Shown: piece after piece, positions 39,310 to 63,552 of the stretch
How the letters are laid out: each line of letters starts with the position of its first letter
Position numbering within the stretch: the first letter of the stretch is position 1
Notes under the pieces: model-generated
The model's database searches: none
Told to the model about the DNA's origin: nothing
What the model saw: the letters and a program-made list of their open reading frames with translations, nothing else
Assembly: GCA_007570785.1 (NCBI GenBank)
Contig: ML664161.1
Location: 4,771,910-4,835,909, forward strand
Length of the DNA: 64,000 bases
Direction: 5' to 3'
Source of the DNA: Antilocapra americana
Lineage: Eukaryota > Chordata > Mammalia > Artiodactyla > Antilocapridae
Position numbers and translations under genes: made by a program

Positions 39310-39920
39310 GACATGTATTTTTTTTTTTATTTTTAACATTTTCTTTACTTTATTGTGTTGGTTTTGCCATACAGTAACATGAAACCGCCATGGATCTACA
39401 CATGCTCCCCCNNNNNNNNNNNNNNNNNNNNNNNNNNNNNNNNNNNNNNNNNNNNNNNNNNNNNNNNNNNNNNNNNNNNNNNNNNNNNNNNNNNNNNNNN
39501 NNNNNNNNNNNNNNNNNNNNNNNNNNNNNNNNNNNNNNNNNNNNNNNNNNNNNNNNNNNNNNNNNNNNNNNNNNNNNNNNNNNNNNNNNNNNNNNNNNNN
39601 NNNNNNNNNNNNNNNNNNNNNNNNNNNNNNNNNNNNNNNNNNNNNNNNNNNNNNNNNNNNNNNNNNNNNNNNNNNNNNNNNNNNNNNNNNNNNNNNNNNN
39701 NNNNNNNNNNNNNNNNNNNNNNNNNNNNNNNNNNNNNNNNNNNNNNNNNNNNNNNNNNNNNNNNNNNNNNNNNNNNNNNNNNNNNNNNNNNNNNNNNNNN
39801 NNNNNNNNNNNTGAAGGCTGTCTTTTCACCTTGCTTACAGTTTCCTTTGTTGTGCAGAAGCTTTTAATTTTAATTAGGTCCTATTTGTTTATTCGTGCTT
39901 TTATTTCCGACATGTATTTT
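39310..39920 (-). mobile_element. Truncated bovine L1 with 12-bp target duplications, containing an assembly gap
   Basis: GACATGTATTTT at 39310-39321 and again at 39909-39920 bounds a reverse L1. The 3' UTR is on the left (poly-T, ttattgtgttggttttgcca) and ORF2 C-terminal sequence on the right (gaaggctgtcttttcacctt ... aattaggtcctatttgttta). The middle is unsequenced. Confidence 0.9.
39412..39811. other. Assembly gap (400 N)
   Basis: Exactly 400 N, inside the L1. By comparison with the complete copy at 62300-63412 about 0.95 kb should separate the two flanks, so the gap length is probably nominal. Confidence 0.97.
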
Positions 39921-44544: not shown

Positions 44545-45066
44545 AGTCAGTGCTGTGCTTAGTTGCCCAGTTGTGTCTGACTTTTTGTGACCCCCATGGA
44601 CTGTAGCCCACCAGGCTCCTCTGTCCATGGGGATTCTCCAGGCAAGAGTAACGAGAACCCAACATGCGAGACAGCAAAAGGAACTCAGATGGTATAGAAT
44701 AGACTTGTGGGCTTTGTGGATGAGGGTAAGGGTGGGATGATATGGGAGAAGGGCATTGAAACAAGTTAATTATCATATGTCTAATCAATCGCCAGCCCAG
44801 GATTGATGCTCGGGGCTGGTGCAGCGAGATTTCCCGGGGGGGAGAGAGGAGGGAGGGGGGTTCTGGAGGGGGAGCATATGTAAACCCATGGTGATATCAT
44901 GACATTGTATGGCAAAAACAATAAAAAAATAAATTAAAAAAAAAAAAAGAATACAGGAGTGGGTTGCCATGCCTTCCCCCATGGGATCTTCCAAACCCAG
45001 GAATTGAACTGGGGTTTCCTGAACTGCAGGTAGATTCTTTACCAGCTGAGCCACCAGGGAAACCCA
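44545..45066 (-). repeat. Bov-tA SINE split by an L1 tail
   Basis: Left half 44545-44650 (cagttgtgtctgactttttg ... ttctccaggcaagagta) and right half 44951-45066 (gaatacaggagtgggttgcc ... gagccaccagggaaaccc) are one SINE; the interval is L1. Confidence 0.9.
44651..44950 (+). mobile_element. Bovine L1 3' end inserted in a SINE
   Basis: acgagaacccaacatgcgag ... gggagcatatgtaaacccat plus A-tail, nearly the same as 63130-63412. The flanks AAGAGTA and AAGAATA look like a short target duplication. Confidence 0.9.
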
Positions 45067-58296: not shown

Positions 58297-58312
58297 AGAA
58301 ATGCACCATTGA

Positions 58313-59088
58313 TGGTTATTCAGCAGTGTGTTGTTGAGCCTCCATATGTTGGAAGTTTTGAAAGGTTTTCTCCTGTAATTGATATCTAATCTCACTGCAT
58401 TGTGGTCAGAAAAGATGCTTAGGATGATTTCAATATTTTTGAATTTATCAAGGTTAGATTTTTGGCCCAGGATGTGATCTATCCTGGAGAAGGTCCCGTG
58501 TGCGCTTGAGAAAAAGGTGAAATTCCTTGTTTTGGGGTGGAATGACCTATAGGTATCAATTAGGTCTAGCTGGTCTATTGTATCATTTAAAGTTTGAATT
58601 TCCTTGTTACTTTTCTGTCTAGTTGATCTATCCATTGGTGTGAGTGGTGTATTAAAGTCTCCCACTATTATTGTGTTGTTGTTGATTTCCCCTTTCATAC
58701 TTGTTAGCATTTGCCTTACATATTGTGGTGCTCCTATGTTGGGTGCATAAATATTTATAATTGTTATTTCTTCTTCTTGGATTGATCCTTTGATCATTAT
58801 GTAATGTCCATCTTTATCTCTTTTCACTGCCTTTATTTTAAAGTCTACTTTATCTGATATGAGTATTGCCACTCCTGCTTTCTTTTGGTCTTTATTCGCA
58901 TGGCATATCTTTTTCCAGCCTTTAACTTTCAGTCTATATGTGTCCCTAGGTTTCAGGTGGGTCTCTTGTAGACAACATATATAGGGGTCTTGTTTCTGTA
59001 TCCAATCGGCCAATCTTTGTCCTTTGGTTGGGGCATTCAGCCTGTTTACATTTAAGGTAATTATTGATAAGTATGATCCTGTTGCCAT
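58313..59088 (-). pseudogene. L1 ORF2 endonuclease domain (inverted part)
   Basis: Starts MATGSYLSIITLNVNRLN and shows the APE-type endonuclease signature: QETHL, INIYAPN, VGDFNTPLTPMDRSTRQK, SRIDHIL and SDHNAV. The acidic and His catalytic residues expected for L1 endonuclease are all present. The domain ends at NNTLLNN, where the inversion joins the target-site duplication; the rest of ORF2 lies on the other strand from 60087. Confidence 0.92.
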
Positions 59089-59160
59089 TTATTTCATTGT
59101 TTTGGGTTCCAGATTATATACCCCATCCGTGTTTCCTATCTAGGAAAGATCCTTTAGCAT

Positions 59161-60066
59161 TCATTGGAGGGCTGGTTTGGTGTTGCTGAATTCTCTCAGT
59201 TTCTGCTTGTCTGAAAAACTTTTGAATTCTCCTTCCAATTTGAATGAGATCCTTGCTGGGTACAGTAATTGGGGTTGTAGATTGTTTTCTTCCATGACTT
59301 TAAGTATGTTTCGCCATTCCCTTCTGGCCTGAAGCATTTCTATTGAGAGATCAGCTGTTATCCTTATGGGATTCCCCTTGTGAGTTATTTTTTGTTTCTC
59401 CTTTGCTGCTTTTAAAATTTGCTCTTTATATTTGATATTTGTTAATTTGATTAATATGTGTCTTGGGGTGTTCCGCTTGGGGTTCATTCTATTTGGGACT
59501 CTCTGTGTTTCTTGGACCTGAGTGGCTATTTGCTTCCCCAATTTAGGGAAATTTTCAACAATTCTCTCTTCAAGAATTTTCTGATGGTCTTTCTTTTTGT
59601 CTTCTTCTTCTGGGACTCCTATGATTCGAATATTGGTGCATTTAATATTGTCCCAGAGGTCTCTAAGATTGTCCTCATTTCTTTTAATTCTTTTTTCATC
59701 TTTCCTTTCTGTTTCATTTATTTCTGCCATTCTGTCTTCTACCTCACTTATCCTGTCTTCTATCTCTGTTATTCTACTGTTGGTTCCCTCCAGGGTGTTT
59801 TTGATCTCATTTATTGCATTATTTATTGTATTTTGACTCTTTTTCATTTCTTCTAAGTCCTTGTTAAAGCTTACCTGCATCTTCTCAATCCTTGCCTGCA
59901 GGTTATTGAGCTGCAACTCCAACTTATTTTCCAGGTTTTGGATCATTTTCACTATCATTATTCGGAATTCTTTGTCAGGTAGACATCCTATCTCTTCATC
60001 TTTTGTTTGGTCTAGGGGATATTTATCCTGTTCCTTTACTTGCTGGGTATTTCTCTGCCTTTTCAT
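59161..60066 (-). pseudogene. L1 ORF1 (inverted part)
   Basis: A 301-codon frame from ATG at 60066. It has a polar N-terminus, a long coiled coil (heptads around IEKMQVSFNKDLEEMKKS and ITEIEDRISEVEDRMAEI), an RRM-like part (NIRIIGVPEEED) and a C-terminal domain (TPRHILIKLTNIKYKEQ, IRITADLSIEMLQARREW). It ends at a stop right after NTKPALQ, where family members continue for some tens of residues, so it is C-terminally clipped. ORF1p is the RNA-binding chaperone of the L1 particle. Only about 20 bp precede the ATG; the 5' UTR promoter is gone. Confidence 0.88.
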
Positions 60067-60086
60067 CTTGTTTATCTTGCTGTGTT

Positions 60087-63067
60087 GTCACAGAAGAAAT
60101 CAAGAATGAAATTCAGTTATGCATGGAAATGAATGAAAATGAAAACACAACAGCCCAAAACCTATGGGACACTGTGAAAGCAGTGCTAAGGGGAAAGTTC
60201 ATAGCAATACAAGCTCACCTCAGGAAACAAGAAAAAAATCAAATAAATAACCTTACTTTACACCGAAAGCAACTAGAAATGGAAGAGATGCAGAAGCCCA
60301 GGTCTAGTAGAAGGAAAGAAATCTTAAAGATCAGCGCAGAAATAAATGCAAAGGAAACAAAAGAGACCATAGCAAAAATCAACCAAGCCAAAAGCTGGTT
60401 CTTTGAGAAGATCAATAAAATTGACAAACCATTAGCCAGACTCATCAAGAAACAAAGGGAGAAGAACCAAATCAACAGAATTAGAAATGAAAATGGAGAG
60501 ATCACAACAGAAAACACAGAAATCCAAAGGATCATAAGAGACTATTATCAGCAACTATATGCAAATAAACTGGACAACCTGGATGAAGTGGACAAATTCC
60601 TAGAAAAGTACAACTTTCCAAGACTAAACCAGGAAGAGATAGATAATATTAATAGACCCATCACAAGCACGGAAATTGAAACCGTAATCAGAAATCTTCC
60701 AAAAAACAAAAGCCCAGGACCAGATGGCTTCACAGCTGAATTCTACCAAAAATTTAGAGAAGAGCTAACACCTATTCCACTCAAACTCTTCTGGAAAATT
60801 GCAGAGGAAGGTAAACTTCCAAACTCATTCTATGAGGCCTCCATCACCCTAATTCCAAAACCCGACAAAGATGCCACAAAAAAAGAAAACTAGAGGCCAA
60901 TATCACTGATGAACATAGACACAAAAATCCTTAACAAAATTCTAGCAAATAGAATCCAACAACACATTTAAAAAATCATACATAATGATCAAGTAGGCTT
61001 TATCCCAGGGATGCAAGGATTCTTCAATATTCGCAAATCAATCAATGTAATACACCACATTATCAAATTGAAAAATAAAAATCACATGATTATCTCAATA
61101 GATGCAGAGAAAGCCTTTGACAAAATTCAACATCCATTTATGATAAAAACCCTCCAAAAAGCAGGAATAGAAGGAACATTCCTCAACATAATAAAAGCTA
61201 TATATGACAAACCCACAGCAAACATTATCCTCAATGGTGAAAAACTGGAAGCATTCCCCCTGAAATCAGGAAGAAGACAAGGGTGCCCACTCTCACCACT
61301 ACTTTTCAACATAGTCTTGGAAGTCTTGGCCACAGCAATCAGAGCAGATAAAGAAATTAAAGGAATCCAGATTGGAAAAGAAGTAAAACTCTCTCTGTTT
61401 GCAGATGACATGATCCTCTATATTGAAAACCCCAAAGACTCTACGAGAAAATTACTAGAGCTAATCAGTGAATATAGCAAAGTTTCAGGATACAAAATCA
61501 ACACACAGAAATCCCTGGCATTCCTATACACTAACAGTGAGAAATCAGAAAGAGAAATGAAGGAAACAATTCCATTCACCATCGAAACAAAAAGAATAAA
61601 GTACTTAGGAGTATTTCTACCTAAAGAAACAAAAGACTTGTATATAGAAAACTATAAAACACTGATGAAAGAAATCAAAGAGGACACAAACAGATGGAGA
61701 AATGTGCCGTGTTCGTGGATTGGAAGAATCAATATAGTGAAAATGAGTATACTACCTAAAGCAATCTATAGATTCAATGCAATTCCTAACAAGCTACCAG
61801 AGGTCTTTTTCAAAGAATTAGAACAAATAATTTCTCAATTTTGTATGGAAATACAAAAACCTCGTATAGCCAAAGCAATCTTGAGAAAGAAGAATGGAAC
61901 TGGAGGAATCAACCTACCTGACTTTAGGCTATACTACAAATCCACAGTCATTAAGACAGTATGGTACTGGCACAAAGACAGAAATATAGATCAATGGAAC
62001 AGAATAGAAAGCCCAGAGATAAATCCATGCATCTATGGACACCTTATCTTTGACAAAGGAGGCAAGAATATACAATGGAGAAAGGACAACCTCTTTAACA
62101 AGTGGTGCTGGGAAAACTGGACAGCCACTTGTAAAAGAATGAAACTAGAACAGTTTCTAACACCATACACAAAGATAAACTCAAAATGGATCAAAGATCT
62201 AAGCATAAGACCAGAAGCTATAAAACTCCTTGAGGATAACATAGGCAAAACACTCTCTGACATAAACCAAAGCGGGATACTCCATGATCCACCTCCCAGA
62301 ATATTGGAAATAAAAGCACGAATAAACAAATGGGACCTAATTAAAATTAAAAGCTTCTGCACAACAAAGGAAACTATAAGCAAGGTGAAAAGACAGCCTT
62401 CAGAATGGGAGAAAATAATAGCCAATGAAGCAATGGAGAAACAATTAATCTCAAAAATATACAAGCAACTCCTGCAGCTCCATTCTAGAAAAATAAACGA
62501 CCCAATAAAAAATGGGCCAAAGAACTTAACAGACATTTCTCCAAAGAAGACATAAAAATGGCTAACAAACACATGAAAAGATGCTCAACATCACTCATTA
62601 TCAGAGAAATGCAAATCAAAACCACAATGAGGTACCACTTTACACCAGTCAGAATGGCTGCCATCCAAAAATCTACAAGCAATAAATGCTGGAGAGGATG
62701 TGGAGAAAAGGGAACTCTCTTACACTGTTGGTGGGAATGCAAGCTAGTACAGCCACTATGGAAAACAGTGTGGAGGTTCCTTAAAAAACTGCAAATAGAA
62801 CTTCCATATGACCCAGCAATCCCACTGCTGGGCATATACCCCGAGGAAACCAGAATTGAAAGAGCCACGTGTACCCCAGTGTTCATCGCTGCATTGTTTA
62901 CAATAGCCAGGACATGGAAGCAACCTAGATGCCCATCAACTGACGAATGGATAAGAAAGCTGTGGTACATATACACAATGGAATATTACTCAGCATTAAA
63001 AAAAATTCATTTGAATCAGTTCTACTCAGATCGACGAAACTGGAGCCTATTATCCAGAGTGAAGTAA
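60087..63067 (+). pseudogene. L1 ORF2, reverse transcriptase to C-terminus (direct part)
   Basis: Begins at TEEIKNEIQ, just beyond where the inverted part stops. It contains the Z/linker region, RT ([45 protein letters not shown], catalytic FADD intact at about 61398) and the Cys-rich end ([19 protein letters not shown]). Defects: TAG at 60891-60893, TAA at 60969-60971, and a one-base loss in the A-run near 62505-62511 that shifts the last ~180 codons. Otherwise the longest open block (61011-62555) is 514 codons. Confidence 0.93.
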
Positions 63068-63412
63068 GCCCGAAGCAAAAACAACAATACAGTATATTAA
63101 CGCATATATATGGAATTTAGAAAGACGGTAACGAGAACCCAACATACGAGACAGCAAAAGGAACGCAGATGTATAGAACAGACTCGTGGACTCTGTGGAT
63201 GAGGGCAAGGGTGGGATGATATGGGAGAATGGCATTGAAACATGTTAATTATCATGTGTCTAATCAATCGCCAGCCCAGGATTGATGCTCGGGGCTGGTG
63301 CATCGAGATTTCCCGGGGGGAGGGAGGAGGGAGGGAGGAGGGAAGGGGGTTCTGGAGGGGGAGCATATGTAAACCCATGGTGATATCATGGCATTGTACA
63401 ATAAAAAAAAAA
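63068..63412 (+). other. L1 3' UTR and first A-tail
   Basis: gcccgaagcaaaaacaacaa ... G-rich tract (gggagggaggagggagggag at about 63319) ... gggagcatatgtaaacccat, then caataaaaaaaaaaaaaa. The G-rich tract is typical of L1 3' UTRs and can form a quadruplex. Confidence 0.9.
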
Positions 63413-63536
63413 AAAAACTCTTCCCCTTTGACCTACAGGTGGGAGTTGGCTTTTGGACAGGAGTCCACCTTCTCCCCCAGCTACAAGCCTCCTAAATAAA
63501 GTAAGCTTTCCTTTCCTGCCAAAATAAAAAAAAAAA
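63413..63536 (+). other. L1 3'-transduced segment with its own poly(A) signal and tail
   Basis: After the first A-tail come about 112 bp that are not L1 (tacaggtgggagttggcttt, acaggagtccaccttctccc), AATAAA at 63495-63500, a cleavage point about 24 nt later and a second A-tail (about 63522-63537), then the target duplication. This is the expected structure when L1 transcription reads through its weak signal to a downstream one. Confidence 0.88.
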
Positions 63537-63552
63537 AGAAATGCACCATTGA

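Follow-up and report, generated by a model that had tools for sequence, protein, structure and literature searches.

The window analysed here is the whole 64,000-nucleotide stretch of DNA, in which an L1 insertion spans positions 58313–63536 and is flanked by a perfect 16-bp target-site duplication. When both strands of the window were scanned for the duplicated 16-mer, AGAAATGCACCATTGA, it turned up at 58297 and again at 63537 of the + strand, immediately outside the insertion in both cases, with no further copy elsewhere on the + strand and none on the − strand of the window. Read 5′ to 3′, the order is L1, A-tail, a segment with its own AATAAA (hereafter the tag), a second A-tail and the target-site duplication. 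The features are as follows, with the evidence for each in parentheses.

58297–58312, + strand: target-site duplication, 5′ copy, AGAAATGCACCATTGA (exact 16-mer, twice in the window)
58313–60086, − strand: inverted 5′ part of the L1, holding 20 nt before the ORF1 ATG, ORF1, and ORF2 to about residue 259 in human ORF2p numbering (open frames; PDB match; colinear with a non-inverted L1)
60087–63399, + strand: sense part of the L1, from about residue 263–265 of ORF2 to the L1 3′ UTR (PDB match; alignment to a non-inverted L1)
63400–63417, + strand: L1 AATAAA and first A-tail (sequence; alignment to LTR copies)
63418–63520, + strand: tag, a probable transduced segment derived from the 3′ part of an ancient LTR (own-genome matches; LTR alignment)
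63495–63500, + strand: LTR AATAAA within the tag (sequence; aligned LTR copies)
63521–63536, + strand: second A-tail, with one T within it (sequence; starts 20–22 nt past the AATAAA)
63537–63552, + strand: target-site duplication, 3′ copy, AGAAATGCACCATTGA (exact 16-mer, twice in the window)

The 3′ end of the L1 carries AATAAA at 63400–63405 and an A-run at 63403–63417. The tag consists of 103 bp of non-L1 DNA, starting with CTCTTCCCC and ending in CCTGCC; the second A-tail comes after the poly(A) signal of this extra DNA and touches the 3′ copy of the duplication. The L1 and its extra 3′ DNA form a single unit within one target-site duplication, and the original prediction of an L1 A-tail, non-L1 DNA with AATAAA and a second A-tail abutting the duplication is borne out by the sequence. 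Since the 3′ copy of the 16-bp duplication comes only after the tag, the tag is inside the insertion, which speaks against its being target DNA that was already in place. The related idea that it is a variant of the L1 3′ end was rejected, as the tag was missing from the 9 other L1 copies compared: it did not occur within about 110–120 bases after any of them (8 have a recognisable 3′ end; in 1 the point taken was not the true L1 3′ end). The usual L1 3′ end therefore does not include the tag, as the original prediction had it. That the tag is pre-existing or variant DNA rather than carried DNA has bare possibility in its favour and is highly improbable.

Both parts flanking the internal break belong to one L1. 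On the − strand, read from 60086 to 58313, an ATG lies at offset 20, and the inverted part holds an open frame that we take to be ORF1. In a PDB search, the start of ORF2 in the inverted part matched residues 5–259 of human LINE-1 ORF2p, and the first open piece of the sense part matched residues 265–529 of LINE-1 ORF2p; ORF2 of the sense part is interrupted by stops and a frame change. Against a non-inverted L1 from the same genome, the alignment of the inverted part ends at base 2577 and that of the sense part starts at base 2578, and the inverted match extends 4 bases into the duplication, which leaves a margin of about 4 bases on an otherwise seamless break. Twin priming is a standard form of L1 insertion, and the 5′ inversion of this L1, with its inverted 5′ part and its continuous break, is a case of it. 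As in other twin-primed (5′-inverted) L1s, an inverted 5′ segment is joined directly to a sense 3′ segment, and nothing notable sets the present copy apart from that class; here the inverted segment extends 20 nt past the ORF1 start. Insertion by target-primed reverse transcription is supported by the twin priming with its seamless break.

Two further L1 pieces were noted in the window. An assembly gap of 400 N occupies 39412–39811, and the 97 bases that follow it (39812–39908) match the studied L1 at 97.9% on the opposite strand (62402–62306); given this match, the gap probably lies inside another young L1. At 44648–44946 there is a 5′-truncated L1 3′ end, seemingly inside a SINE, with SINE-like sequence before it that resumes past its A-tail; the surrounding sequence is presumed to be a SINE by likeness.

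To characterise the tag, a 111-base query was searched against the 2.44-Gb assembly that holds the window, and the best 40 of 75 candidates were scored. All 40 were matches, including the tag itself; the 39 non-self matches among these best 40 are 74–94% identical to it and are mostly copies of one LTR family. The tag is thus a piece of dispersed repeat and not the unique sequence that had been proposed. When the tag-like loci were compared with one another, similarity reached well past the tag, as in a single dispersed LTR-like family, and the LTR copies within which the tag aligns extend beyond both of its ends. The upstream half of the LTR was recognised in 29 of the 40 loci (3 of these 29 had supplied the query sequences) and not in the other 11. 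By these alignments, the tag is the 3′ part of an old retrovirus-type (ERV) LTR; it begins at the TTTAAAA box, takes in AATAAA and stops near the R/U5 edge. The assignment to an LTR is based on the length of the copies, a TATA-like box, AATAAA and TG...CA-like ends rather than on a repeat-library match; the R and U5 regions are placed by position. Within the window, a search with a 23-bp core of the tag at ≤3 mismatches gave a single hit, the core itself (0.00 expected). The possibility that the tag is a known RNA was discarded, since none of 4227 Rfam families reached its gathering score in the window. Exact 30-mer scans for stray host DNA gave 0 hits in bacterial/archaeal contigs and 0 in viral contigs.

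Both edges of the tag fall at definite places in the LTR. The right edge, CCTGCC(AA), lies 20–22 nt past AATAAA at a point where other LTR copies run on; of 7 aligned LTR copies, 5 have AATAAA, with GATAAA in L003 and AATAAG in L007. In the alignment, the left edge coincides with the TTTAAAA of the LTR (TT/AAAA), and the last AAAA of the first A-tail is indistinguishable from the AAAA of this box at a parent site. The L1 endonuclease consensus is TTTT/AA, and the LTR TTTAAAA reads TTTT/AA on the opposite strand. These positions suggest that a parent L1 probably sat inside the LTR, in the same direction. The earlier hunch that an LTR was involved was therefore right as to the end of the tag, a piece of LTR reaching about the R/U5 edge, but it had put the parent just upstream of an LTR and not within one.

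The box is not universal in the family. Among the 7 aligned copies it reads TTTAAAA in L003 and L007, TCTAAAA in L004, and TGTAAAA in L006 and L008; it is broken in L005 and absent from L002. In a loose count over the 30-nt zone at the left edge in the 40 tag-like loci, 19 showed TTAAAA (in L059 and L061, which are counted here, it comes from an A-run), 12 had just AAAA, and 9 had neither of the two. Runs of at least three As take the form TTAAAA in 2 of 19 cases in L003, 2 of 16 in L007, 0 of 12 in L006 and 0 of 21 in L008, so that TTAAAA is entirely absent from 2 of these 4 distinct LTRs. At locus L059 (G000:C1893:6771425-6773906), an insert of about 200 bases, presumably a SINE by its likeness to one, sits with its own A-tail at the same bases as the left edge of the tag; it is flanked by AAAAGCTCTT on both sides, and the right-hand As merge with the A-tail. 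Because this SINE-like insert sits there, LINE machinery is able to use the TTTAAAA site. Locus L057 may hold a similar insert at the box, in a messier context. It would be a long step, and one we consider improbable, to propose that the box is a recurrent LINE/SINE landing site just upstream of a ready poly(A) signal, and that L1s nested there regularly transduce, dispersing LTR 3′ ends together with their R region and poly(A) signal across the genome.

The left edge also bears on an account in two events, in which an ordinary L1 insertion was followed by insertion of a 5′-truncated retrocopy of an LTR-terminated transcript into the L1 A-tail. Processed pseudogenes or LTR retrocopies inserted in an A-tail are a recognised class and would likewise give an AATAAA-bearing piece with an A-tail. 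The A-rich tail is a possible target, the second duplication would be an A-run and hence invisible, and the final sequence would be expected to look identical; moreover, truncated retrocopies often join at short homologies, so that an edge at AAAA is possible, and the failure to find a parent L1 (see below) agrees with this account. It nevertheless needs a second event where one suffices, and it needs the edge to fall by chance at the LTR TTTAAAA, one of just two TTAAAA sites in L003 (out of 19 A-runs) and in L007 (out of 16), and the place where the SINE-like insert of L059 landed independently. Transcripts driven by an LTR start about 25–30 nt after the TATA-like box, and the tag extends upstream of that expected start; it follows that only 3′-LTR read-out would carry the tag. 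Taken together, the two-event account is considered unlikely.

L1-mediated 3′ transduction is the best reading of the L1 and its tag, and we hold it with good confidence. It is favoured because one duplication bounds both the L1 and the tag and the A-tail abutting that duplication follows the tag, because the right edge is where a transcript using the LTR AATAAA would end, and because the left edge, TT/AAAA, is the L1 endonuclease consensus on the opposite strand. It is weakened by the fact that the parent was not found and that the TTTAAAA box is not universal. Under 3′ transduction, a parent L1 would have landed within an old LTR, at its TTTAAAA box and in matching orientation. Its transcript would have passed its own AATAAA and A-tail into the remaining LTR, with cleavage and polyadenylation about 20 nt past the LTR AATAAA (63495–63500), a signal that the putative read-through transcript probably used. 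This read-through RNA would then have been copied at the present site by target-primed reverse transcription, with twin priming inverting the 5′ 1.8 kb during insertion.

Searches for a parent or sibling copies were carried out in the same assembly. A 62-base query across the junction between A-tail and tag found no other such junction (1 of 1 candidate, itself), and the 28-mer at the start of the tag occurred once at ≤3 mismatches, again as itself. The second half of the tag gave 14 matches, all of which were scored, the best non-self match being 94% identical and the next 88%. An L1 3′ end in the right direction was found within 600 nt upstream of none of the 40 tag-like loci examined, and the check covered 13 of the 14 second-half matches, all but the one on contig C1273; the sole upstream L1 match, at L038, covers 21 bases in the reverse direction and was taken as trivial. 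The tag was thus not seen directly 3′ of a parent L1 elsewhere in this assembly, nor was any sibling copy seen there that would form a transduction family. The original prediction of 3′ transduction therefore stands as the best-supported reading of one duplication with two A-tails, without its parent; its further expectation, that the tag would name the source L1, was not realised in these searches. The parent may have disappeared, may lie in a gap or may have diverged too far, and its absence lowers the claim without excluding it. The genome search skips very common words and scores the best candidates only, and it could therefore overlook a parent that has decayed. A separate structure was observed at locus L029 (8696–8830; G000:C1890:24314696-24314830), where an L1 3′ end directly follows an assembly gap and leads into an A-rich tail, about 23 other bases (CCTCAGCATGTTTACAGCAAATG) and then another A-run; judged from its sequence, this may be a 3′ transduction of very short length or an A-tail with an interruption.

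One LTR remnant could be considered as the former source. Among the scored matches, the remnant at G000:C1890:24300981-24301043 (L002) is the closest LTR match to the tag, with 94% identity over 63 bp, and its match takes in the 111-base query only from base 47 onward. The two differ at 4 of 61 positions, a kinship resting on these 61 bases only; the second-closest of 120 pairs has 7 differences in 61, against a median of 23%. The copies were chosen by likeness to the tag, which biases this comparison toward the tag without giving the C1890 copy in particular an advantage. Two states common to the tag and the remnant are missing from all 14 other copies, and a third recurs in 2 of these 14. 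Around the remnant, the nearest L1 is 93.9% identical to the L1 of the window over 1030 columns, and on this basis the split between tag and remnant would roughly fit the age of the L1. The remnant has neither an L1 nor the upstream half of the LTR with it, and the sequence upstream of it is unlike both. The comparison took in 60 kb on the upstream side and 55 kb on the downstream side, a span that includes an 8561-base assembly gap 5.1 kb downstream; only weak matches to the first half of the tag or the upstream half of the LTR were seen there, one of 21 bases with E 0.14 and one of 17 bases with E 0.014. Continuation of the remnant upstream as LTR was rejected, its 130 upstream bases scoring no higher than shuffled sequence when compared with the first half of the tag and four LTR copies. 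If the remnant is the source, then deletion has removed the evidence: the L1, the upstream half of the LTR and the first 46 bases of the tag homologue would have been lost later. This would add to the transduction reading, but it is a tentative suggestion that we regard as rather doubtful.

The event is of a well-known kind and leaves the known mechanism unchanged; that an LTR 3′ end was carried is to be expected when L1s land in repeats. It offers an orderly example, in a genome whose SINEs and L1 look like those of a ruminant, of how an L1 landing inside an LTR could carry the poly(A) end of that LTR to a new place, and of a transduced tag that may itself be repetitive and so need not lead back to its parent. 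Among the papers listed in a literature search, none deals with L1 transduction in ruminants, judged by titles and the opening of abstracts; PMC12424770 has no bearing on the present insertion. In humans, L1 transduction families are described, e.g. one of 14 members (PMC6425141); unlike in those families, neither parent nor sibling was found here, and the carried DNA is repetitive LTR sequence, which marks its source less well than unique DNA would. In a human survey (PMC9311842), transductions by L1 and SVA measured 7–997 nt, a range within which the 103-bp tag falls. In its anatomy, the present insertion has the same arrangement as human L1 3′ transduction: an L1, an A-tail, flanking DNA with its own AATAAA, a second A-tail, and a duplication around the whole.
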